From IMG/VR virus record IMGVR_UViG_3300032311_000770, positions 1 through 25,946 of that record: a stretch of 25,946 nt of DNA; one strand, 5' to 3'. Position numbers and translations under genes: made by a program. The notes beneath the pieces are model-generated. The model saw nothing but the letters and a program-made list of their open reading frames with translations. It searched no databases and was not told the origin of the DNA. Positions 10,634-25,946 of the stretch are shown here, piece after piece; positions within the stretch are counted from its first letter, which is position 1; every line of letters starts with the position of its first letter. This DNA is from a virus.

Positions 10634-12675
10634 TATTTCACCAGCCGCAATGTGACGTCACAACGACAATTGGGATGTGCGGGCGGGCCGTCCGGTGAAT
10701 CAATTCCCCATACGTCAATTAGTTTGTTGTCGTATGGTTTGCAAATCCGGCAAACCAACTCATCCGCGTCCGTATTCCAAACCAATTCGGTTTTAATTCC
10801 GGCGTCGTTTAAAAACTTTTCGTATGCGTTCGTTGTTTGCGTTGACGCTCTCGTGATTTCCGTAATTGCAATGGTTGCGGCGCGGGTTTCCCCGAACGCC
10901 GGGGTTAATACGTCCCGTAAATCAGTAATCGTCATTCCGGGGGTTGTACGGTATAACGCAATTGCTTTACTTAATACGTCGCTGGTTGTTCTATCAATCT
11001 CCAAACCAAACTTGGGTAAATAGGTTTCTAAATACCCGTTAACCGTGGTATTCCGTTGTTCCGCCCCCATGGGGTATTGGAATTGCGTACCCAACGCGTC
11101 AATTCGGGTATTTGCGACGTTGGTTAGTTCGCTAACCATCGCCGGTTTGATTAACTGGGATAGATTTGGATCGTCCCCGTTTCCATCATCCATTACTTGG
11201 CGCGCCCAAATGTCCCCAGCGTTTGCCAAAATCCGAACCAGTTTGTTGTATAGTTTTTTCTCATTCGCCCGGATTTTTTGGGTTGCTTTTATCCCCGCAA
11301 AAAACGCCCGGATTTCCCTCGGGTCCGTGATGGATTTAAGGGTTTTGGAAATATACAATTCTAACGGCGCTGGTATCGATGATCCGACAAATTTGGTACC
11401 GTCCCCGCCCGATCGAATTCGGCGAATCGCTTTTTGTTCCCAGCGGGTTAAATCGTCTAAAAATTGCGCCGTTGCATATGCGATTTCAAACGGGGGCGGC
11501 GCCGCTGGGGATATTTCCGGCGTTATACGATCAGATGGCAATGGTTCGGGCGTTTTGGGGGCGTTGGGGTCTACCACCCCGGCGTTATTTGACGTATTTA
11601 TTTGTAATACATCTTCGATGTTTTTGTATCCCAAAATATCCATAGCGCCGGCAAGTGGGACGCCCGCTTGTACTAACTGCAATAGCGAACCCGCCCGTTG
11701 GGCCTCATCCGTCTGCATCACGTCCAACGTTTCGGGTTGGAACGTGAGTTCGTACCCCAGCGGGAACAATAATTGTTCATTGATGATTTGCTGAATAACC
11801 GATAAACGGGGAATAATCGTTTCCCGCCAAAAACTTTGTCGATCGCTGTTAGCGGTTGCGTAATTGGCGGCGGACGCCTCCAGCATGGTTTGGGGAACGC
11901 CGAATACCGTCCCAACGGAATTATTCACCCGTTCGGCTAAATCGTTTAGCATTAAATCTTTTAACGCTGGGGTGATTGATTGGGCCTTAATATCCCCGCC
12001 CCGTACAAACAACGTCCGGAATGAGTTCCACACCCCAATAAACCGGTTCATATATTCCAGTTTGAACCGCTTAAATTCGTTTTCTGCCATATCGGATGGC
12101 ATACTCATGATTGTTACCGGTTGGGCGCCGTGTTCAAAAAACGCAGATGCGAACCGTTCGATATAGTGGGATAATTGCGCCGATTGGAGGGCAACCGCCG
12201 CCGGCGCCAACCCCGGCCCGAAATCGTCAATTAGGGACGGTTCCCGGAAATAGACGATTTCGTTTATTCCCCATGGTCCGTATTGTTTGCCGCTAATCCG
12301 TTGTTCAAATTGCAAAAACGCCAACGGATCGGCCGCGTCAAATTCCCCGTATGGGAATACCCGGACGGTATTGGGGTTTAACTGCTGGAACCCAATCAAT
12401 ACGTTCCCCCGGAATAGTCGCAACCAGTACGCGGCGCCCTTAAGTAATAGCGCCCGTTCGGTATCTCGGATGAGATTGGGCAACGCCGATTTAAACGGCC
12501 AATTCACCGGGACGCCCTTACGGGTAATTAAATATGGAACGCTAGACAATGCATCCGCCCGCAAATTTACCGCCCGGTATAGTACGGGTACAACCCCATA
12601 CGCCCCAACGGTTCCCCCAACTGATTCCGCGTTTTGCAACGCGTTTACCCACCCCGGAATTGCTTCGATTGCCAT
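10633..12675 (-). CDS. Portal protein fused to MuF-type head morphogenesis domain
   Basis: Residues 1-370 are a portal protein of the HK97 type: RAVNLRADALSSVPYLITRKG, then YWLRLFRGNVLIGFQQLNP, and a stem/crown region ending in VFGVPQTMLEASAANYATANSDRQSFW and helix PLAGAMDILGYKN. Residues about 400-680 are a MuF-like minor head domain: a long helical part, then ITEITRASTQTTNAYEKFL and the metal-binding type end with CRIC and HPNCRC (Cys near 642, 645, 670 and 672). Portal and MuF are usually separate neighbouring genes. The open frame extends 15 bases further up to a TTG, but the ATG at 12675 overlaps the terminase stop (TAATG), so I prefer it (680 aa). The portal forms the dodecameric DNA entry ring; MuF proteins are injected or aid head assembly. 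Confidence 0.92.
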   Translation of the reverse strand: MAIEAIPGWVNALQNAESVGGTVGAYGVVPVLYRAVNLRADALSSVPYLITRKGVPVNWPFKSALPNLIRDTERALLLKGAAYWLRLFRGNVLIGFQQLNPNTVRVFPYGEFDAADPLAFLQFEQRISGKQYGPWGINEIVYFREPSLIDDFGPGLAPAAVALQSAQLSHYIERFASAFFEHGAQPVTIMSMPSDMAENEFKRFKLEYMNRFIGVWNSFRTLFVRGGDIKAQSITPALKDLMLNDLAERVNNSVGTVFGVPQTMLEASAANYATANSDRQSFWRETIIPRLSVIQQIINEQLLFPLGYELTFQPETLDVMQTDEAQRAGSLLQLVQAGVPLAGAMDILGYKNIEDVLQINTSNNAGVVDPNAPKTPEPLPSDRITPEISPAAPPPFEIAYATAQFLDDLTRWEQKAIRRIRSGGDGTKFVGSSIPAPLELYISKTLKSITDPREIRAFFAGIKATQKIRANEKKLYNKLVRILANAGDIWARQVMDDGNGDDPNLSQLIKPAMVSELTNVANTRIDALGTQFQYPMGAEQRNTTVNGYLETYLPKFGLEIDRTTSDVLSKAIALYRTTPGMTITDLRDVLTPAFGETRAATIAITEITRASTQTTNAYEKFLNDAGIKTELVWNTDADELVCRICKPYDNKLIDVWGIDSPDGPPAHPNCRCDVTLRLVK

Positions 12676-13865
12676 TACATGAAACCCCAATCTATAGAAC
12701 CGGTTCCAATCATCCCGACGGCCCCGCTCACGGCGTCTACCATATCATCATGGGACCCCATTGGAAACGATACCAATTCATCCAAAAATATCCGGTTCCA
12801 ATCGCCGCGGATTAATTTGCATTTGCCCGATTCGGCCCGCGCCGCCCATGGCATCGCCCGCGCTTTTTTGTCACGATCCACCCGAATCCCCCGGATCGTG
12901 GTGGTAATCAGTTCCGGGCGCCGGCGTAATTCCTGTAACCCCGCTAACCCGTGTAACGCCTCTTCGATACCCAACACGGTACCGGGTTCCGATAACGCCG
13001 TATGAATAATGAGTTTTTGGACGTCCGGCCATTCGGCCTTAATCCGGATTACATCATCAATATACAATACGCCGTTATCATCGAACGCAACCCGGGCGCC
13101 GGCGGTATAGTCGGCCGATTCCTTAATTGATGCCGCTAAATCCCAGTAGCGAACCCAATCCAACCCGGCCGGGGGTGTATCGATATAATCGAACCATTGG
13201 CGTTTAAACATTGCCCCAGCAACGTCGATAAATTTCCCATTGGCCTCTTGTTCATATTGTTCCGCCGTCATCGTTGCCCGCAACATTTCCACAAATCCCG
13301 CTGGGAGGTAAACGTTATCCGCGGTACGGGATTCTATCATTGCGTAATCCAACCCGCCCCGGTTCCATAATTCCCAAATCCAATTACGCCCGCGCGGGGT
13401 GGTGGTAATCCACGCCCGGCCGGGCGTTTCTCGTAATGTGGCAACCGCAATGGGCCACGTTTCGGGATCCATTAACGCGCCCTCATCCAACCATAACCAT
13501 CCCAGATTGGCGCCGCGCAACCGGTCCGCGTTATCGGCGGAACGGAACAAAATTGTTCGGTTCCCGATTAACTTTAGTTCCCCATGGGATTGGTTAAATT
13601 CGGTAATGATGTTCCCAGCGCCGGCAACATTGAGAATAGTTCTCATTGCCCCGTCCCGTAACATGGGGTATGTGGGGGCGATAACCGTCCCAATAGAACC
13701 CGTTGGCATACGCAACGATTCCAGCGCGCCGGCGTGTGTTTTGCCGCTCCCCCGCCCGCCAACGAATAGCCGGAACCGGGCCGGGTTATTCCAGAATTGA
13801 AATTGTGGGTTTGTCGCTTTGGTTTGCGTCAATACCCGCGTTTGTGTGTTGTGGGGTGATGTCAA
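12675..13865 (-). CDS. terL: Terminase large subunit
   Basis: This is a 396-aa DNA packaging motor. Walker A is GGRGSGKT at residues 36-43, Walker B LWLDE at 124-128, and the coupling motif TTTP at 154-157. The C-terminal RNase H-like nuclease has Asp242 (YWDLAAS), an acidic pair near 301 (GIEEALHG) and SHDDMVDA at 371-378. All expected catalytic groups are present, although the protein is at the short end for the family. The ATG at 13865 gives an unusually large 80-bp overlap with the small subunit gene; a TTG (residue 13, LTQTK) is an alternative, since the family-like sequence begins about residue 17 (ATNPQFQFW). It cuts concatemeric DNA and pumps it through the portal. Confidence 0.96.
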   Translation of the reverse strand: MTSPHNTQTRVLTQTKATNPQFQFWNNPARFRLFVGGRGSGKTHAGALESLRMPTGSIGTVIAPTYPMLRDGAMRTILNVAGAGNIITEFNQSHGELKLIGNRTILFRSADNADRLRGANLGWLWLDEGALMDPETWPIAVATLRETPGRAWITTTPRGRNWIWELWNRGGLDYAMIESRTADNVYLPAGFVEMLRATMTAEQYEQEANGKFIDVAGAMFKRQWFDYIDTPPAGLDWVRYWDLAASIKESADYTAGARVAFDDNGVLYIDDVIRIKAEWPDVQKLIIHTALSEPGTVLGIEEALHGLAGLQELRRRPELITTTIRGIRVDRDKKARAMPWAARAESGKCKLIRGDWNRIFLDELVSFPMGSHDDMVDAVSGAVGMIGTGSIDWGFM

Positions 13866-15317: not shown

Positions 15318-15680
15318 TTATTTCATTACCGCCCGGCCGGCGTCATCAATTACCAACCATTGGCCCCAGCATGGTTTGGAACTTGCCCAATGACGCCAAC
15401 CCCGGCCGTTATCCCATAGCCGGATAAATTGTTTGTACTGTGCTGGGGGTGAATCCATTTCGGCGTTGGGGTGTCCGGCTAGCCATACATACGTCGAATC
15501 ATTGAATTGGAACGCCCCGCCGTCATCCGTTGGGGAGCGGGCGCCCCAATCAATGGTACCCCAGTTTAGCCCGTCCCCGGATTCACACGACGCAATAGCG
15601 ACGGCCGCCGGAATTACTTCGATTGTGTTGGCGTGACATACGCCCGTATTACAAACCAACCATAGGAATATGCTAATCAT
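15318..15680 (-). CDS. Secreted transglycosylase/lysozyme-like muralytic protein (Rpf-like)
   Basis: This is a 120-aa protein from the ATG at 15680. That start overlaps the upstream stop (ATGA) and has GGAAAA upstream; the frame is open 27 bases further to other ATGs without a good ribosome-binding site. Residues 1-17 look like a signal peptide (ISIFLWLVCNTGVCHA, cleavage before NT). The mature part has IASCESGDGLNW with the likely catalytic Glu33, followed by GGAFQFNDSTYVWLAG, the pattern of Rpf and transglycosylase-like domains in which Glu cuts the glycan chain. It would act outside the membrane, either at lysis or to open the wall. Placed at the end of the middle operon, away from the amidase. 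Confidence 0.82.
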   Translation of the reverse strand: MISIFLWLVCNTGVCHANTIEVIPAAVAIASCESGDGLNWGTIDWGARSPTDDGGAFQFNDSTYVWLAGHPNAEMDSPPAQYKQFIRLWDNGRGWRHWASSKPCWGQWLVIDDAGRAVMK

Positions 15681-16606
15681 GATGTTTTCCAATCGTACCA
15701 TTTGCATTTGAGGGGCAACCAGTCCCCATCAACTTGCCGAACCGCCCAACGGTATTTGGTTCCCAACCAGTTCCCAACGATTTGGGCGACATCCTCCCGA
15801 TCATACGCGTGAAAACTGTTTTGTTCCGGGTACAACCGAACCCGAACGGGTAAATGTTTAATATGGTACCGGATTCCGTTGGGCGTTGCGGGGAGTATGG
15901 AATACAAATATGTCGCGCTAATGTATTTGTACCGGGCAATGTCCCGAATATCTCCAATCAGTTCCCGCCAACGGGGCGCGGCGCGGTTTGTGTTGCTATG
16001 CATCGCTAACCCGGCCCGTAATACGGATTCAATCATTTCGTCGGTATAGGGTAATGTGATTAAACCGTGTCGAATCAGATTATTTATTATCGATTTATTG
16101 ACGCCGGTATCCTGTATAAACTTGGCCTTACTTAACCCAACCGATTTCCGGTATTCGGTGACTTTTACCCCGGTTGCCCGTTTTACGGCGTCATACAACG
16201 CGTATAACTTGGTTCGTTTCATTACTCGTAAATGTTCCCCGTTCCGGCGCCCCTGGGGTTGGTTTATGAACTTTTCCAGCGCTCTAATTTGGGCGGCGGT
16301 GTAAATCCCCTCCCGCGGCGCTTTAAGTTCGCCGTTAGTGATGAGGGCGTGCTTTATGTGGTTGTATCTCGCCACCCCAATTCTCAGTATTTTACAATCC
16401 CGAATTCGGTTATTGGTAAATACTTTCAAATACCGGTCCAGGAATTCGTCATTATTGCCCGGTTTTGAAAATACCCAACTACAAAATTCATCGCTGGTAT
16501 AGATTTCCTGTAATACCATTTGGGTTGGCAGTTTCATTTCGTCGGCAATTTGGCGGATTGTTTGCCCGCCGATATACCGGGCGGCTAGTGAAATACTATG
16601 CATCAT
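15677..16606 (-). CDS. Helix-turn-helix-containing protein, possible late regulator
   Basis: This 309-aa protein is not a family I recognise. Residues 5-36 read as a helix-turn-helix of resolvase/sigma-like type (SLAARYIGGQTIRQIADEMKLP). Residues 151-182 contain a second HTH-like pattern (EYRKSVGLSKAKFIQDTGVNK), and residues 220-250 may hold a third. It is basic overall. The last part has a beta hairpin-like segment (GIRYHIKHLPVRVRLYPEQN) and many Trp/Lys residues. A DNA-binding role is reasonable. Because it lies near the end of the middle operon, just before the late promoter, it could activate late genes; this is inference. Two ATGs (16606, 16603) overlap the upstream stop. Confidence 0.7.
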   Translation of the reverse strand: MMHSISLAARYIGGQTIRQIADEMKLPTQMVLQEIYTSDEFCSWVFSKPGNNDEFLDRYLKVFTNNRIRDCKILRIGVARYNHIKHALITNGELKAPREGIYTAAQIRALEKFINQPQGRRNGEHLRVMKRTKLYALYDAVKRATGVKVTEYRKSVGLSKAKFIQDTGVNKSIINNLIRHGLITLPYTDEMIESVLRAGLAMHSNTNRAAPRWRELIGDIRDIARYKYISATYLYSILPATPNGIRYHIKHLPVRVRLYPEQNSFHAYDREDVAQIVGNWLGTKYRWAVRQVDGDWLPLKCKWYDWKTS

Positions 16607-18537: not shown

Positions 18538-19098
18538 CTATTCCCCCTCATCCGTCGAATAGTCAATCGTGGAAATCACCCATTCCCGGAAATGGTCGTA
18601 GTTGGGTTCGATCGTGCTGGGGTATAATCCGGATTGGTGGTGTTCGCTGTCGTATACCCAACACGTATCATCCTCGCTGTAAATAACCCGATACGTTTCG
18701 TGCATTGCGTCGAATTTTATTATTCCGGGTTCCCCCTCCAGCAATTCGGGCAACCAATTTTGTTCCAGCGTATTTCGTAAATAGTCGTAATCCGATACGC
18801 CCCGATATTTGCGGATTTGGTTTTGAATGAATCCCCCCATCCACGTATACCCAACGGTGATTGTTGTAGCGTGATCCGTGGCAATGTCCCGAACTATAGC
18901 CGTCATTTCGTAGGTATTTTGCCAAATGGTTTTTACCATGCATCCTTGGATAGGTTCGGGAATCTCATATACCCCGTATTGCATTACCCGATATTCTTTA
19001 CCGAAAATTTTCAGTTCCGGCCCGGCGGATGGGGAGGGGCGATTGTTTACCGGATTGTTGGCGAATGAGAATTCGCCGGTTTCAAAATTGTAGTTCAT
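18538..19098 (-). CDS. Hypothetical protein, 186 aa
   Basis: This protein has an Asn/Pro-rich N-terminus (ANNPVNNRPSPSAGP) and a folded part with several strands (KEYRVMQYGVYEIP, HATTITVGYTWMGGF, IIKFDAMHETYRVIYSEDDTCWVYDSEH), with an acidic end (YSTDEGE). No conserved domain is recognisable. It follows the second ribbon-helix-helix gene by an ATGA overlap and is followed immediately by two small membrane proteins. The acidic surface would fit a DNA-mimic or inhibitor, but nothing in the sequence proves this. Confidence 0.72.
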   Translation of the reverse strand: MNYNFETGEFSFANNPVNNRPSPSAGPELKIFGKEYRVMQYGVYEIPEPIQGCMVKTIWQNTYEMTAIVRDIATDHATTITVGYTWMGGFIQNQIRKYRGVSDYDYLRNTLEQNWLPELLEGEPGIIKFDAMHETYRVIYSEDDTCWVYDSEHHQSGLYPSTIEPNYDHFREWVISTIDYSTDEGE

Positions 19099-19280
19099 TC
19101 CGTTTTATCCTTTGCTCCTATTGCCCAATCAATCAAATACCGCAATGTCCCAGATAGTGTTTGGACCCGTCGATATTTGCCGCGGGGTAATGAATCCCGG
19201 ATCCGTTCCAGCGCCGCCCGCCGTTCGGGCGTAATGTATAGCGTGATTACCGATTTGTTTTTTGGTTCCGTGTTTTTCAT
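19095..19280 (-). CDS. Ribbon-helix-helix-like protein, 61 aa
   Basis: A short basic start leads into a strand (SVITLYIT), helix 1 (PERRAALERIRDSLP), a basic turn (GKYRRVQT) and helix 2 (SGTLRYLIDWAIGA). This order and size fit the Arc/MetJ/CopG-type ribbon-helix-helix fold, in which the strands of a dimer read the DNA major groove. It is the second gene after the promoter with two TATACGTATA operators. It could repress that promoter, alone or with the other small regulator just upstream (ATGA overlap). Confidence 0.68.
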   Translation of the reverse strand: MKNTEPKNKSVITLYITPERRAALERIRDSLPRGKYRRVQTLSGTLRYLIDWAIGAKDKTE

Positions 19281-19480
19281 AAATCCCCTAATTCGGCGGG
19301 CGTTGTAAATGCGATTTGGAGGGCGCTGGTAACCACGTGGTCCAACGTGGTCCCGGAATCTTCAACGGTTTGTAATAGTGTGTTATACAGTTCCCGGGGA
19401 ATTCGGACGGTGATGGTTGCGGGCGCGGCGGGCGGTTGGGGCGTTGGTTTGCCAATGTGGAATCGGGCGGGTTGGTTCAT
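19277..19480 (-). CDS. Ribbon-helix-helix (CopG/Arc-like) DNA-binding protein
   Basis: This 67-aa protein has a Pro/Ala-rich N-terminal arm, then a strand ATITVRIP, helix 1 (RELYNTLLQTVEDSG) and helix 2 (TLDHVVTSALQIAF), a classic ribbon-helix-helix order. It is the first gene of the middle operon, 17 bases after the nearest operator palindrome. The start has GGAGCAACA upstream. Self-regulation through the tandem palindromes is the simplest model, and the same palindrome stands at the early promoter, so it may control both. Binding is inferred, not shown. Confidence 0.78.
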   Translation of the reverse strand: MNQPARFHIGKPTPQPPAAPATITVRIPRELYNTLLQTVEDSGTTLDHVVTSALQIAFTTPAELGDL

Positions 19481-19496
19481 TGTTGCTCCTATTCGT

Positions 19497-19539
19497 TATA
19501 CGTATAACTATTATACTGTATTTTATAGTTATACGTATA
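19497..19539 (-). promoter_or_regulatory. Middle-operon promoter with tandem TATACGTATA operators
   Basis: Two perfect 10-bp palindromes TATACGTATA (19497-19506 and 19530-19539) have centres 33 bp apart, three helical turns. They sit in a perfect 15-bp inverted repeat with a 13-bp spacer. A consensus TATAAT -10 (minus strand, 19510-19515) lies between them; the -35 position falls in the distal palindrome and the start of transcription in the proximal one. The weak -35 (TATACG) suits a regulated promoter. The same palindrome occurs at the promoter at 25653-25680. Confidence 0.8.
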
Positions 19540-19723
19540 TTGTTTTTTCGGGCAATGTGGAGCGGGGGGAATACAGAGGGGCGCGGGGGTCGTTTTAGTT
19601 CAAACGCGGGCCGGGGTCCCCAGCGCCGGGGCGCCGTTCCATCGATGTATTGACGCTGGGAACCACGCCCGGCGCCGGCCCGATCGCCCGGCCGTAACCA
19701 TCAATACGCCGGTGTAAGTGATT

Positions 19724-19772
19724 GCGTTTATTATGTAAACATTTGTTTACGGCGTATCAATCGCATAAACGC
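19724..19772. repeat. Nested dyad around GTAAACATTTGTTTAC
   Basis: An inner inverted repeat GTAAAC-attt-GTTTAC (19735-19750) lies within an outer pair GCGTTTAT (19724-19731) and ATAAACGC (19765-19772). Nested symmetry of this kind is typical of protein-binding sites at origins or operators. The right half of the inner repeat is also the beginning of the 18-bp direct repeat. Confidence 0.65.
19745..19762. repeat. 18-bp direct repeat, copy 1
   Basis: GTTTACGGCGTATCAATC occurs here and again at 20207-20224, 462 bp away. The two copies bracket the GC-rich island and the first two iterons. No integrase or transposase gene is present, so a binding site is more likely than an attachment site. Confidence 0.85.
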
Positions 19773-20184
19773 CAAACGCCCTATTTTCAAAACAACATTA
19801 GAACTCCAATGTTGCTTTGAATATTTATTACATCATTGCCCAACGTAGCGAATCAGTGATTACAATGCACCAAACCCCGCCCAACGTTGCCCGACATTGG
19901 GGGCGATAATTACCAGCGCCGGGCGATGATTGGCCGGGAGCGGCGCCGATTGACGGGGCCGGGACGCTGGGAGCAACGCCGGGCGGGGCGGGGTTGCATC
20001 GATGGGGGTACGATCGCCGGGCCGGACGCCGGGGTCAACCAATCGCGGGCGCGCGAACCGGGAACGCTTTGGCTATTGGTTATGTAAAGTCAAAAAATAG
20101 CATCATCTGGATGTACTAACATCTCCCCATTTTGATGCACAATTCCCCCAATTTTCTCCAATTCATCGCTATATACAAAAACGA

Positions 20185-20289
20185 TGGCACAATGGCACAA
20201 TGAGGCGTTTACGGCGTATCAATCACCAAAAACCCATGGCACAATGCGTGGCACAATGATGGCACAATGGCACAATGGATGGCACAATG
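20185..20289. repeat. Iteron array A: seven copies of TGGCACAATG
   Basis: Exact TGGCACAATG copies begin at 20185, 20193, 20237, 20249, 20260, 20268 and 20280, all in one orientation. Some overlap by two bases, giving 8-bp spacing; others are 11-12 bp apart. The second copy is followed by the second 18-bp repeat (20207). Together with the opposing array to the right, this looks like a set of initiator protein binding sites at a replication origin. Confidence 0.85.
20207..20224. repeat. 18-bp direct repeat, copy 2
   Basis: Second copy of GTTTACGGCGTATCAATC, embedded between the iterons at 20193 and 20237; the first copy is at 19745-19762. Its presence inside the iteron array suggests that both copies belong to the same origin or regulatory region. 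Confidence 0.85.
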
Positions 20290-20316
20290 AACCCCAAATA
20301 GCGTCAACGATCCATA

Positions 20317-20328
20317 GGGGTATACCCC
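20317..20328. repeat. Central palindrome GGGGTATACCCC
   Basis: A perfect 12-bp palindrome sits at the point where the iterons change orientation: TGGCACA copies lie to its left and TGTGCCA copies to its right. It therefore marks the centre of a large dyad. Confidence 0.75.
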
Positions 20329-20445
20329 ATTGTGCCATATGTGCCATATGTGCCACGCTATGCCATATGTGCCATATATGCCACGCTATGCCATATGTGC
20401 CATGCAATATAAAATACATCAATCTATAATAAAAACAATATGCCA
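20328..20445. repeat. Iteron array B: inverted TGTGCCA/TATGCCA tandem repeats
   Basis: TGTGCCA begins at 20331, 20340, 20349, 20368 and 20396. The variant TATGCCA begins at 20359, 20377, 20387 and 20439. Spacing of the first eight is 9 or 10 bp. Within this, a 28-bp unit is repeated in tandem (20340-20367 and 20368-20395) with one mismatch. CATTGTGCCA at 20328 is the exact reverse complement of the array A unit, so the two arrays face each other. A run of sites with near-helical spacing beside AT-rich DNA is the usual plan of iteron origins. Confidence 0.85.
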
Positions 20446-20475
20446 TACATACATACATATATATATATATACAGA
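20403..20475. other. AT-rich candidate unwinding element
   Basis: About 70 bases directly next to array B are very AT-rich: ATAAAATACATC, then TATAATAAAAACAATA, a CATA repeat and a run of alternating AT. Easily melted DNA flanking iterons is the classic unwinding element. It could also be a slippery simple repeat without function. Confidence 0.6.
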
Positions 20476-20499
20476 GGGGAGGGTATATATACCCTCCCC
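20476..20499 (-). terminator. Perfect palindrome, likely end of replication operon
   Basis: The 24 bases GGGGAGGG-TATATATA-CCCTCCCC form a perfect palindrome 30 bp beyond the stop of the last replication gene (20530). The minus-strand transcript would fold into a strong hairpin, followed by a U-poor but AU-rich tail. A smaller inverted repeat, TTCCCACTGGGAA, lies at 20504-20516. Termination is probable; a binding site at the border of the origin is an alternative. Confidence 0.6.
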
Positions 20500-20529
20500 C
20501 GTTTTCCCACTGGGAACAATTTTTTCTAT

Positions 20530-20964
20530 TTACCGATGATTGTATTTTTTGATACGGGCCAAAATATTCGGCGTTCCAAGTGTTTGCCCCAGCAAAATAT
20601 AATCGTCAACGTCCCGACATACCGCCAAATGAATCCGCCAATACTGAATAAGGGCGGCAATAATCCCGCCGAACTTTACCGTTTCATCTAATCGACGTTC
20701 GAACCGCTCCCGCGCGGATCGGAGCGACGTTAACGGGGTTTGTTCAATTTCCATATACGCGGTTTGTACGTTATCCCAGCGGGCAAGTTCCGCCGGGTCC
20801 AACGAATCCACCAAATCGCAATATATCCCCGTGGCAATGCTGGAACGTTCCAACAACCAATCAAACCCGCCCTCCCAATCTCCCATACAATCCGTACATA
20901 GAACCCGGCGGCCGGTATACTTACTATCACATTTCCGACAATGTTGGGTAATATGGTTTGTCAT
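20530..20964 (-). CDS. Zinc-ribbon protein of the replication operon
   Basis: This 144-aa protein starts with a four-Cys zinc ribbon: CRKC (Cys9, Cys12) and CTDC (Cys23, Cys26), separated by a basic turn (KYTGRR). The rest is mainly helical (LTSLRSARERFERRLDETVKFGGIIAALIQYWRIH). I recognise no family. It follows the primase/helicase gene by an ATGA overlap and is the last gene before the candidate origin. It may recognise the iterons or bring the helicase to them, since no other initiator candidate is encoded, but this is inference. Other possibilities are a regulator or an RNA-binding factor. Confidence 0.72.
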   Translation of the reverse strand: MTNHITQHCRKCDSKYTGRRVLCTDCMGDWEGGFDWLLERSSIATGIYCDLVDSLDPAELARWDNVQTAYMEIEQTPLTSLRSARERFERRLDETVKFGGIIAALIQYWRIHLAVCRDVDDYILLGQTLGTPNILARIKKYNHR

Positions 20965-23069
20965 TGCGCGCCCTCCTTATAAATCAAATCATGTATTTTT
21001 AGCGGTATTCCGCCGATATTAATCAGTGCGACCACCCGGGTGAGTTCCTTAAACAATGAATCCGGCGGCAAATCCGAATTTTTCAAATCATATATTGCCG
21101 CCCGGAATTCAATCGGTATTTGAGAATACGCAACGTCGGTGATCGGTTTCCAGTAATACCCTTGACGTCCAAACAACCCCGGCGCCAACTGGGGCGAATC
21201 GCCCCGTATTGGGGGCAACGTGGCGATTTGCGGGGCGTTATCACCCTTAGGGTATATTTGTCTATTGGCGTCATTTTCGGCCCGCAAAACGGCGGCTATA
21301 CGTTCCCCAATCGCTTGGTACCGTCCCCGGCCAACTTTGCCAATCAAACCGTCCGATTCCAACCGCCCCAACAACTTCGTAACACTGTTTGGGGTTTTGT
21401 CGGTTTGGCGGGCAATTTCGGCCGCCGTCATTTCATCCCCAGCGGCTAATATTTCCATTACCCGGCGGCGTTCAAATCCCAAAATCAAATGGAGCGGGGC
21501 GGGATCGTCGATTTTGTGGCAATTCATATACGTATCCCATTGGAGCGTAACCGGGTCCCGGTCGGGCATATTCCTATACCGGGTTTCTAATATGGTTCGG
21601 GTTCCGTCGGTTTCATCCCGGCGGATAATGATGGTTCCGTCAACGGCGCCGGTGAGTCCGGTGGTCCCGCTGACTTCGTCGAACGGGTCATCGGATTTCG
21701 CTTTCCGGGTATGGTGAATAATACAAATAACGATTCCGTGTTTGTGTGCTAATCGCTGGATTGGTTTGATTGCGTTGTAATCCTCGGCGTATGCCAGCGC
21801 CCGGCCGTCCACTGGTTCCCGAAAATTCTGCAATACATCGATGATAACCAACCGAATCCCGGCGTTCGCCTCCAAATACACATCCAGCATTGCCACGGCG
21901 TCCAAACCCCGTTTATTCCAATCATCACTAAATCCAAAATGTAAATCGGTTGGCCAATGATCGCTAACCAAACTCATCATTTTCAATCTGGTATATACCC
22001 CGTTGTCATTGCCCTCCAAATCTAAATACAGCGCCCCGGATTTCTCACTGTCAAATTGACCAAATACTTTTTGGCCCCTACTTACCATTAACGCAATATG
22101 GAGCATTAAAAACGATTTCCGGGATTTTGGTTTCCCTACCACCAAATAACACCCCGGTATAAATAACTCATCAACAATAAACCGCATTGGGGGGAATTCC
22201 GCCCGTTGCAAATCGGCGGCCGTGGTGGTTTTGGCAACGATTGGGGGCGGTGGTACGATTGGCGGAACGCTATAGATGAGTGTGGGGGTATCGGGGTTTA
22301 ATCGCAACCAATCCGCCACGTCCCCGCCCGTCCCTAGTTGTAAATCGAGATTGGTAGTGGTGAATCCGGCGTTCCGCAATTGCATCGTGAGTTTTTCGGC
22401 GGCGTTGCGCCCGGTTTCATCGCAATCCAGTGCAACGCAAACCGGCCCGTTCCATTTGGACTTAAGGGTTTCTAGTAACAGTTCCGGTATCCCCCGTTCC
22501 GCCCCGCTGGTGATACACGTCGCGGGGATGCCCTTGGATAACGCCACAATAACCGATATTTCCCCGTTACATAACAGCAACGGGAGCGCGTCGTATTTGG
22601 CGCGTTTTACGGCCGCGTCTAGGTAGTACCAGCATGGTTTGTATCCTTTGGCGTGACTATAGCGGGGGTTCAATCCATCGATATACCGAAACCGATCACC
22701 GGCCGGGGTGATGAATTTAAACCCCGCCCGTTTGCCGGCAATAGGGACCCAACCAAATTGCCTCATTACTTCCAGCGTGACGCCGTGACTAATTGCGTAT
22801 TCGTCATGGGTTAGCGTTATTTTTGTGTTTGCGGGTTGCCCCTTATCTACTGCTATCCCCAATTTATCCGCCAATTGATACAGCGAATAACCGGCGCTCC
22901 CCCGGGTACGATCGACGGCCGTCCCCATTTCCTCGGTAATGATTTTTACTTCAAACGTTCCCGAATCGGCGTTCGGGTCCCATGGCCGATTACCCACCCA
23001 AACGCCCGGGGATTTCTCTATAAACCCTTGGGCGCGTAGCGCGTCAATAACTTTTGTTGCGGTTCCCAT
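20961..23069 (-). CDS. Replicative primase-helicase (Toprim plus RecA-like ATPase)
   Basis: This 702-aa protein is a multi-domain replication protein. Residues about 160-255 form a Toprim domain: LLLCNGEISVIVALSKG with Glu170 and VCVALDCDETGRNAAEKL with Asp215 and Asp217, then GGDVADWL. Residues 300-500 form a RecA/RepA-like helicase: Walker A GKPKSRKS (312-319), YLDLEGNDNGVYTRL, Walker B RLVIIDV with Asp411, and VICIIHHTRKA. A winged helix-like segment (ILAAGDEMTAAEIARQTDKTPNSVTKLLGRLESDGLIGKVGRG) follows, and the C-terminus is unassigned. No N-terminal zinc finger is visible. It would unwind DNA and prime synthesis; no polymerase is encoded, so host polymerase is needed. A terminator lies directly upstream. 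Confidence 0.94.
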   Translation of the reverse strand: MGTATKVIDALRAQGFIEKSPGVWVGNRPWDPNADSGTFEVKIITEEMGTAVDRTRGSAGYSLYQLADKLGIAVDKGQPANTKITLTHDEYAISHGVTLEVMRQFGWVPIAGKRAGFKFITPAGDRFRYIDGLNPRYSHAKGYKPCWYYLDAAVKRAKYDALPLLLCNGEISVIVALSKGIPATCITSGAERGIPELLLETLKSKWNGPVCVALDCDETGRNAAEKLTMQLRNAGFTTTNLDLQLGTGGDVADWLRLNPDTPTLIYSVPPIVPPPPIVAKTTTAADLQRAEFPPMRFIVDELFIPGCYLVVGKPKSRKSFLMLHIALMVSRGQKVFGQFDSEKSGALYLDLEGNDNGVYTRLKMMSLVSDHWPTDLHFGFSDDWNKRGLDAVAMLDVYLEANAGIRLVIIDVLQNFREPVDGRALAYAEDYNAIKPIQRLAHKHGIVICIIHHTRKAKSDDPFDEVSGTTGLTGAVDGTIIIRRDETDGTRTILETRYRNMPDRDPVTLQWDTYMNCHKIDDPAPLHLILGFERRRVMEILAAGDEMTAAEIARQTDKTPNSVTKLLGRLESDGLIGKVGRGRYQAIGERIAAVLRAENDANRQIYPKGDNAPQIATLPPIRGDSPQLAPGLFGRQGYYWKPITDVAYSQIPIEFRAAIYDLKNSDLPPDSLFKELTRVVALINIGGIPLKIHDLIYKEGAQ

Positions 23070-23132: not shown

Positions 23133-23900
23133 TTAAAACGGTAATATTGGTTCGTCTAGTGATTGGGGGACATTGCGGCCGGGCGCTGGTTCATCGATGG
23201 GGGCGACATTCCCCCGGCGTTCATCCGCCCAACCCTTATATTCTTTTTGGATTTGGGCGCCCTTTTGTAAGATTTCCGTACCGACGTATAGCGTTTTGAG
23301 ATCGTCCCGGGTTGCGCCGAATTTGGGATTAATCACGGGCAACGTAACAACCGAACCCTTGCCCGTTTCGGTATATACCGGGTTGCCCTTTTTATCCGTT
23401 GGCGCCGTCATCGGGATATAAAACGCCCAACCGGGGAGGGTGGTTTTTGCCAGCGTCATCGCGAACGCCCCAATGGTTTTTTGGTATTCCTCAATGATCC
23501 CGCCCTTGCCATAAATCGCCCGGGCCGTCATCCCCTTGGTTACCAAAATAATCGGTTCGTCAATCCCGGCGGCAAATCCTAATTGTTCGGCGTATTTGCG
23601 GGCGCCCTTTTCATAGTGTGCCAACCAGCGGGTTTCTTGCCCGTCGCTGGTGAACCATTGTTCCCGGTAATAGATTGGCGCCCACATAAGCGACGGCGCC
23701 GAATAACCGGATTCATCGGGGAACCGGTTGGACTCATTCCACGGGAGATCACACCCGCCCAACTTGGTATAAAATTCCCCATTGGTTCGAACGGTTTTGG
23801 CGTCGACGCCGTTAAACCACCAAATTTTTGGGAGTTGGCGCGTTGGGGTTTCGGTTTCAAACTCTAACCCGGCAATATCATCAAAAAAATCATTACTCAT
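23133..23900 (-). CDS. Putative single-stranded DNA-binding protein (SSB-like C-terminal tip)
   Basis: This 255-aa protein ends SLDEPILPF. An acidic stretch finishing in Pro-Phe is the mark of bacterial SSB and analogous phage proteins, where the tip recruits partners such as primase and nucleases. The preceding segment (VAPIDEPAPGRNVPQ) is a Pro-rich disordered linker, as in SSBs. The body (residues 20-215) is mixed alpha/beta with aromatic residues (KIWWFNGV, LMWAPIYYREQWF, GWAFYIPM); I cannot assign a fold. It lies directly before the primase-helicase, where phage SSBs are usual. It overlaps the upstream gene end by 8 bases. Confidence 0.68.
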   Translation of the reverse strand: MSNDFFDDIAGLEFETETPTRQLPKIWWFNGVDAKTVRTNGEFYTKLGGCDLPWNESNRFPDESGYSAPSLMWAPIYYREQWFTSDGQETRWLAHYEKGARKYAEQLGFAAGIDEPIILVTKGMTARAIYGKGGIIEEYQKTIGAFAMTLAKTTLPGWAFYIPMTAPTDKKGNPVYTETGKGSVVTLPVINPKFGATRDDLKTLYVGTEILQKGAQIQKEYKGWADERRGNVAPIDEPAPGRNVPQSLDEPILPF

Positions 23901-24120
23901 TCCCGTTTCCTATCACTGGTAGGCTAAATTCCGGATTGATTACATCTAGCCCGCGAAATTTGGCGGCGTCCATTACACATTGGCGGACAATCTGGGGGAG
24001 CGTTAACGGTTTCATTCCTTGTTTTCGCATCTCCATATACCCAATCTGCCATAGTAGCATTGATTCGGTATGGTTAAACGAAACCGTGGTACGCGTTAAT
24101 TGTTCCTGTTTTTCATCCAT
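23893..24120 (-). CDS. Small protein with ribbon-helix-helix-like pattern
   Basis: This 75-aa protein has a strand (TRTTVSFN) followed by two helices (HTESMLLWQIGYMEMRKQG and TLPQIVRQCVMDAAKF). That order is consistent with a ribbon-helix-helix protein, though helix 1 is long and the match is weaker than for the two middle-operon proteins. It could be a third small regulator or a helical accessory to the SSB-like gene it overlaps by 8 bases. An A/G-rich ribosome-binding region precedes the ATG. Confidence 0.68.
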   Translation of the reverse strand: MDEKQEQLTRTTVSFNHTESMLLWQIGYMEMRKQGMKPLTLPQIVRQCVMDAAKFRGLDVINPEFSLPVIGNGNE

Positions 24121-25680: not shown

Positions 25681-25811
25681 TATGTAATTATGCGAATATG
25701 CGAATATTGGTAAAACTCTCATAATTGCCCCGTTACTCCCGGGGGTATCATTGTATAGGGTTGGGGGATAACGCCCCGCAAATCGCCAAATAGACGCCAA
25801 TACGGGGCAAA

Positions 25812-25841
25812 TACAAAACCCCCCGGGTGGGAGGTTTTGTA
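25812..25841 (-). terminator. Late-operon terminator spanning the circular junction
   Basis: Two 13-base arms (25812-25824 and 25829-25841) pair through TACAAAACC and GGTTTTGTA, with one G-U pair on the minus strand, around a 4-base loop. The minus-strand transcript of the last tail gene (stop at 90) reaches this hairpin after about 70 bases in the circular form. The U-run is short (TTTG). A further inverted repeat GCCCCG/CGGGGC (25773-25778, 25803-25808) lies beyond. Terminator is the best reading. The right arm is also present at 6-18. Confidence 0.7.
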
Positions 25842-25946
25842 CCGTTATTTATGATGTATGCATTTTTTATATAGGTTGCTCCAATCTATGGCAATTCCAG
25901 TAATTGCCGACGTTATACGGCGCCGGTGAGTTGTATTATATCAATA
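25824..25946. repeat. Terminal direct repeat, right copy
   Basis: Exact copy of bases 1-123. Joining the ends here gives a continuous sequence in which the jelly-roll gene is followed by the terminator hairpin and then by the early promoter region. The gene-free stretch across the junction (25615-25823 plus 1-89) holds the early promoter, its operator and the terminator. Confidence 0.95.

Follow-up and report, generated by a model that had tools for sequence, protein, structure and literature searches.

The opposed arrays of short repeats at 20185-20445, next to the primase-helicase gene of this phage, are very probably its replication origin, an inference that rests on comparative sequence evidence. 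Arrays of the same design, each time with a different repeat word, lie at the 3' ends of related helicase genes in many phages, phage satellites, and plasmids, suggesting that these helicases find their own origins. The window analyzed here is the whole 25,946-bp virus record IMGVR_UViG_3300032311_000770. An exact 123-bp direct terminal repeat (1-123 and 25824-25946) indicates that the record is probably a complete, terminally redundant or circular genome. All the main genes run on the - strand, and the longest noncoding stretch, 19,481-20,529, lies between a zinc-ribbon gene and a pair of small genes and holds the arrays.

Anatomy of the repeat region

The features of the region and of the adjacent genes are as follows.

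20185..20289 (-), left iteron arm: seven exact TGGCACAATG (TGTGCCA read on the - strand) at 20185, 20193, 20237, 20249, 20260, 20268, and 20280; kept in L009, the only close relative (92% identical)
20207..20236 (+), repeat GTTTACGGCGTATCAATC filling the gap inside the left arm, with a second copy at 19745-19774
20317..20328 (no strand), perfect palindrome GGGGTATACCCC between the arms
20331..20402 (+), right iteron arm: TGTGCCA at 20331, 20340, 20349, 20368, and 20396 and TATGCCA at 20359, 20377, and 20387 (spacing 9,9,10,9,9,10,9); 19 bp shorter in L009, with array integrity kept
20402..20471 (no strand), the most AT-rich 70 bp of the genome (83% AT), a candidate melting site (DUE) that starts at the last base of the right arm
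20439..20445 (+), detached ninth copy, TATGCCA, beyond the AT-rich stretch; present in L009
20476..20499 (no strand), 24-bp perfect palindrome GGGGAGGGTATATATACCCTCCCC between the AT-rich stretch and the zinc-ribbon gene; one mismatch in L009
20530..20964 (-), zinc-ribbon protein, 144 amino acids (aa), with a weak Zn_ribbon_11 hit; an accessory gene of the window's clade only
20961..23069 (-), primase-helicase, 702 aa, proposed initiator: Toprim, AAA_25 (RSF1010 RepA/DnaB-type RecA fold), and C-terminal winged helix
21312..21476 (-), codons 532-586 of the helicase: winged helix-turn-helix, proposed iteron reader

The initial annotation had described seven exact copies facing at least nine on the right, a perfect palindrome between them, a very AT-rich flank, 9- to 10-bp spacing, and a higher-order 28-bp unit, and this observation was confirmed. 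The 28-bp unit is three iterons (9+9+10), whereas the left spacing (8,44,12,11,8,12) is less regular than had been suggested. The 24-bp palindrome at 20476-20499 and the repeat inside the left-arm gap were not part of that description. The arrays exceed chance expectation: 12 of the 15 TGTGCCA/TGGCACA in the genome lie in this 0.3 kb, while whole-genome shuffles average 2.8, with a maximum of 7, and no dinucleotide shuffle approaches the observed arrangement. Among 300 shuffles of the intergenic region, 298 had no inverted array and 2 had a score of 5, against 12 observed. The palindrome GGGGTATACCCC is broken by one base in L009 (GGGGTATCCCCC) and is thus probably not essential. GC skew, which had been proposed as a test of the origin, gave no support; there is no origin-type reversal here, and both flanks are negative, though all main genes run one way. 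Rfam and tRNA searches returned nothing, and no promoter-like excess was found in this region.

A GC-rich block with repeated CCCGCCCAACGTTG/GCCGGGC words (window 19600-20080) lies next to the array on the helicase-distal side, and a similar, more repetitive block lies behind the array of the relative L124 (L124 7003-7450). A 46-bp inverted repeat (87% complementary) pairs a stretch inside the helicase gene, in the poorly modeled linker after the winged helix (21201-21246), with the intergenic region at the genome end (25763-25808), as if a small repeat had inserted in both.

Linkage of the arrays to a helicase family

To examine the neighboring gene, we scanned its product and other early-region and small proteins, ten in all. 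The 702-aa protein has a Toprim domain, an AAA_25 domain, and a winged helix near residues 534 to 584 (Pfam HTH_24, HTH_20, and MarR hits). A profile of 68 relatives, 68/68 of which carry AAA_25, matched RSF1010 RepA, the closest solved helicase (E=1.7e-14), and MarR-like winged helices. In an AlphaFold2 model, the winged helix (helices 532-543, 549-556, and 560-572 and two strands) is predicted at a pLDDT of about 87 to 96, and the ATPase part superposes on RepA with a TM score of 0.69 by target length and an rmsd of 3.6; T7 gp4 and DnaB also match. Thus, the statement in the initial annotation that the phage encodes no recognizable initiator is not supported, as a candidate initiator is present.

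We next fetched helicase relatives by protein similarity only, with no use of the repeats. Six homologs on plasmids and fecal phage records first showed opposed short-repeat arrays at or near the end of the helicase gene. A fixed detector (a 6-mer with at least two copies on each strand within 220 bp and an opposed-arm score of at least 5) was then applied to two samples of nonredundant loci. In the first, which also included named records (68 clusters, 64 usable), an array was centered within 250 bp of the helicase 3' end in 39/64 loci, of the 5' end in 0/64, and of other long ORFs in 10/467, all 10 at the minimal score; shuffled loci had an array anywhere in 18/320. In the second, made of clusters not in the first, the counts were 43/101 at the 3' end, 0/96 at the 5' end, and 0/101 in shuffles. 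Same-arm spacing peaks at 9 bp in both (107 of 197 gaps below 40 bp and 80 of 185, respectively). The words differ between elements and include TGTTAC, TGTCCC, TGTCCA, GTGACG, CATTGA, CCATTC, and TTCACT. On the other hand, about 40 to 55% of relatives lack a detectable array at the fixed cutoff, either because the word is too degenerate for the detector (L035 is an example) or because they truly lack one. Distant homologs in mycobacteriophage KayaCho, Gordonia phage Emalyn, and a Nonomuraea record have no array at the helicase 3' end, which bounds the class.

Several arrays lie inside the 3' end of the gene and are read as tripeptide repeats because 9 bp is three codons, for example, SIHSIHSIH in Caldicellulosiruptor bescii and EVHEVH in L126. 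Such arrays in L030 (1737-1910), L126 (4949-5126), and L084 (3313-3496) give SIH, EVH, and ATS/ATF repeats, as a putative origin written into a protein's linker. The 8.3-kb native C. bescii plasmid pATHE01 (same size as pBAL in PMC3643907) carries the module with TTCACT arrays inside the helicase gene and no other recognizable replication protein in its annotation. Many array-bearing loci (L037-L115) are 9- to 12-kb contigs; integrase, HNH, terminase, portal, and capsid families recur across the loci, and thus some may be capsid-forming phage satellites.

In a search of viral contigs for the word itself (the TGGCACAATG pair), only L009 has a true array, and the other 17 hits show no clustered TGGCACA array in the detector. 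An initial genome scan found no conserved stretch. Within the window's own clade, L124 (a contig of 26,986 bp; helicase 54% identical), the closest distinct relative, has the helicase, a zinc-ribbon homolog (E=6e-18), and then an array of eight TGTTAT facing mainly ATAACA, i.e., the window's order with another word. L122 and L121/L123 (37%) have GTTTACA/TGTAAAC and GGTTKACA/TGTCAACC arrays between helicase and zinc-ribbon genes. L125 has the zinc-ribbon gene directly after the helicase and an ATACAC-rich array 1.9 kb on, which is less certain. A protein of about 300 aa with weak HTH hits (window 15677-16606) has similar-looking ORFs shortly after the zinc-ribbon gene in L122, L123 (6800-7777), and L125 (6375-7511), a conserved early-region regulator of unknown function. 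A single-protein scan of genomes found no relative of the window's helicase, and the host was not identified; among annotated phages, the terminase large subunit (12675-13865) is closest to those of methanogen virus psiM2/psiM100 (28 to 29% over 95%) and Halorubrum tailed viruses.

No gene other than the helicase is common to the array-bearing loci; the next most frequent are an integrase in 28, a capsid/protease family in 23, and an HNH protein in 19 of 69. Between helicases whose ATPase cores are at least 60% identical (38 pairs, 27 loci), similarity of the iteron word goes with similarity of the C-terminal domain, with array-coded residues removed (rho 0.51, permutation p 0.001), and not with that of the core (0.08, p 0.35). 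The pairs are not independent, so these figures are support, not proof, and over all pairs the effect is lost in noise (partial r 0.06, p 0.08).

Proposed mechanism and alternatives

We favor, with reasonable though not full confidence, a theta-type origin recognized by the helicase itself. In this view, the helicase binds the TGTGCCA iterons through its C-terminal winged helix; copies about one helical turn apart, in two opposed arms, would seat two helicase assemblies facing each other, which would melt the AT-rich stretch at 20402-20471, load their RepA-type rings on the strands, and prime through the Toprim domain. The host replisome would then copy the DNA, as no phage polymerase was recognized. 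Against this view, besides the GC skew and the relatives without a detectable array, the window's array is one gene away from the helicase gene, and the AT-rich stretch is beside, not between, the arms. The arrays, their linkage to this helicase family, the change of word with conserved plan and spacing, the tracking of the word by the C-terminal domain among close relatives, and the domain architecture come directly from our analysis; binding, ring (hexamer) formation, melting, loading, priming, bidirectionality, and use of the host polymerase are inferred. The interpretation in the initial annotation, an origin without a recognized initiator, was therefore partly supported: the origin reading fares well by comparative evidence, but the absence of an initiator does not.

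Among the alternatives, the least unlikely is that the zinc-ribbon protein, which the initial annotation offered first, recognizes the iterons alone or together with the helicase, the helicase being recruited afterwards as RSF1010 RepC recruits RepA; RSF1010 RepA needs RepC as a separate iteron binder (PMC8965321). A homologous zinc-ribbon ORF follows the helicase or the array in all six relatives of the window's clade examined (L009 and L121-L125), and the C. bescii helicase carries CxC and CxxC cysteines of its own behind its array. However, a profile of these zinc-ribbon proteins found no further member among all loci outside this clade, a search of annotated phage records returned no match, and dozens of elements have arrays beside the helicase with no such gene. 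The iteron words also follow the helicase C-terminal domain among close pairs. Being confined to the window's own clade, the zinc-ribbon protein is at most an accessory factor. Its predicted structure, from only two sequences, is of low confidence (pLDDT 56).

It is improbable that the arrays are operators or a partition-like site, comparable to the short-heptad sites of omega/ParG-type proteins. Three small ORFs (19095-19280, 19277-19480, and 23893-24120) look ribbon-helix-helix-like by eye, two of them flank the intergenic region, and opposed short repeats suit such dimers. Yet no family or structure hit supports the fold, the genes are not shared with the other array-bearing loci, and no copies cluster at any other place in the genome, such as the start of the helicase operon. 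Still less likely are RNA hairpins that end or protect the helicase transcript, in spite of the position at the 3' end of the gene and of complementary linkers in some arrays (65% of 72 positions): only 11 of 72 two-armed arrays have mirrored spacing, the window's arms differ so that no continuous hairpin forms, the repeated word and 9-bp phase are not needed for a hairpin, and several arrays lie inside coding sequence. Finally, firing by a host initiator such as DnaA, which iteron plasmids often need, is very doubtful, because DnaA-box-like sites are not enriched anywhere (17 found, 25 expected) and only one mismatched site, at 20133, lies near the array.

Relation to known replicons

The initial annotation suggested an undescribed origin/initiator pair. 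This fits for this helicase family as far as the papers searched go: in the open-access literature, with subscription papers and preprints left out, we found no origin described for AAA_25 primase-helicases. The plan itself, a helicase-initiator with its iterons just 3' of the gene, is known from P4, SaPI/PICI, and SCCmec elements. In SaPI/PICI, the origin lies immediately 3' of the rep gene, there are two sets of short iterons, the C-terminal domain reads them, and words differ between islands (PMC7581432, PMC6092414). The window likewise has two sets of short iterons. One small gene lies between helicase and array in the window and L124, whereas in many relatives the array is directly at the gene end; a role of the C-terminal domain in reading the iterons is suggested only by sequence covariation in close pairs. 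Unlike in SaPI/PICI, in which the AT-rich stretch lies between the iteron sets, the sequence between the window's arms is 50% AT and the AT-rich stretch is on the right flank. The Reps of those satellites, of the D5/DUF927 type, are not RecA-fold helicases; here, a similar plan is seen in a 26-kb phage, in plasmids, and with another helicase type.

Phage P4 alpha combines a Toprim-type primase, a helicase, and a C-terminal DNA-binding domain acting at short repeats in one polypeptide (PMC4234260), but its helicase is SF3 whereas ours is RepA/DnaB-type. The P4 DNA-binding domain has a winged-helix fold. The C-terminal domain of SCCmec Cch2 binds short AAGTG repeats downstream of the helicase gene (PMC7581432), but the helicase is of the D5/primase-C-term type and there are only three iterons, in direct repeat. 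pRN1 ORF904 is a primase-helicase with a C-terminal winged helix and an origin just 3' of the gene (PMC4234260), with an SF3 helicase and a long stem-loop instead of iterons. The resemblance to P4/SaPI is thus in the inferred way of working and not in membership, because the helicase type differs.

RSF1010 shares the RepA-type helicase by homology and fold but uses a separate iteron binder, RepC, and a separate primase; here, primase, helicase, and the putative DNA-binding domain are fused, and no RepC-like hit was found among the scanned proteins. GP46 of Lactococcus phage F13 is a RepA/AAA_25-related 5'-3' helicase shown to unwind DNA (PMC8965321); it has 298 aa, and we found no winged helix or origin described for it. 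Iteron plasmids whose Rep has WH1-WH2 differ as well: no Rep_3-type initiator was hit among the ten proteins scanned, and instead of about 17- to 22-bp direct iterons with DnaA boxes, the window has 7- to 10-bp opposed repeats without DnaA-box enrichment, although an AT-rich region is present.

A broader reading, about as likely as not, is that these elements form a widespread, unrecognized class of mobile-element replicons in which a RecA-fold (RepA/DnaB-type) replicative helicase is itself the origin-recognition protein, reading a private iteron word through a fused winged helix and loading itself from two opposed arrays at the 3' end of its own gene, with no separate initiator or loader. 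DnaB/RepA-type rings are normally delivered to origins by separate initiators and loaders, and the known self-specific helicase-initiators (P4 alpha, SaPI Rep, and Cch2) belong to other helicase types. If our reading holds, origin recognition by a fused winged helix has also arisen on the RecA-fold type, across phages, phage satellites, and plasmids of many bacterial phyla. It would give a simple rule for finding origins in uncharacterized elements, namely, opposed 9-bp-spaced repeats at the 3' end of the AAA_25 primase-helicase gene, and a natural series of helicase/word pairs in which to study how recognition specificity changes.
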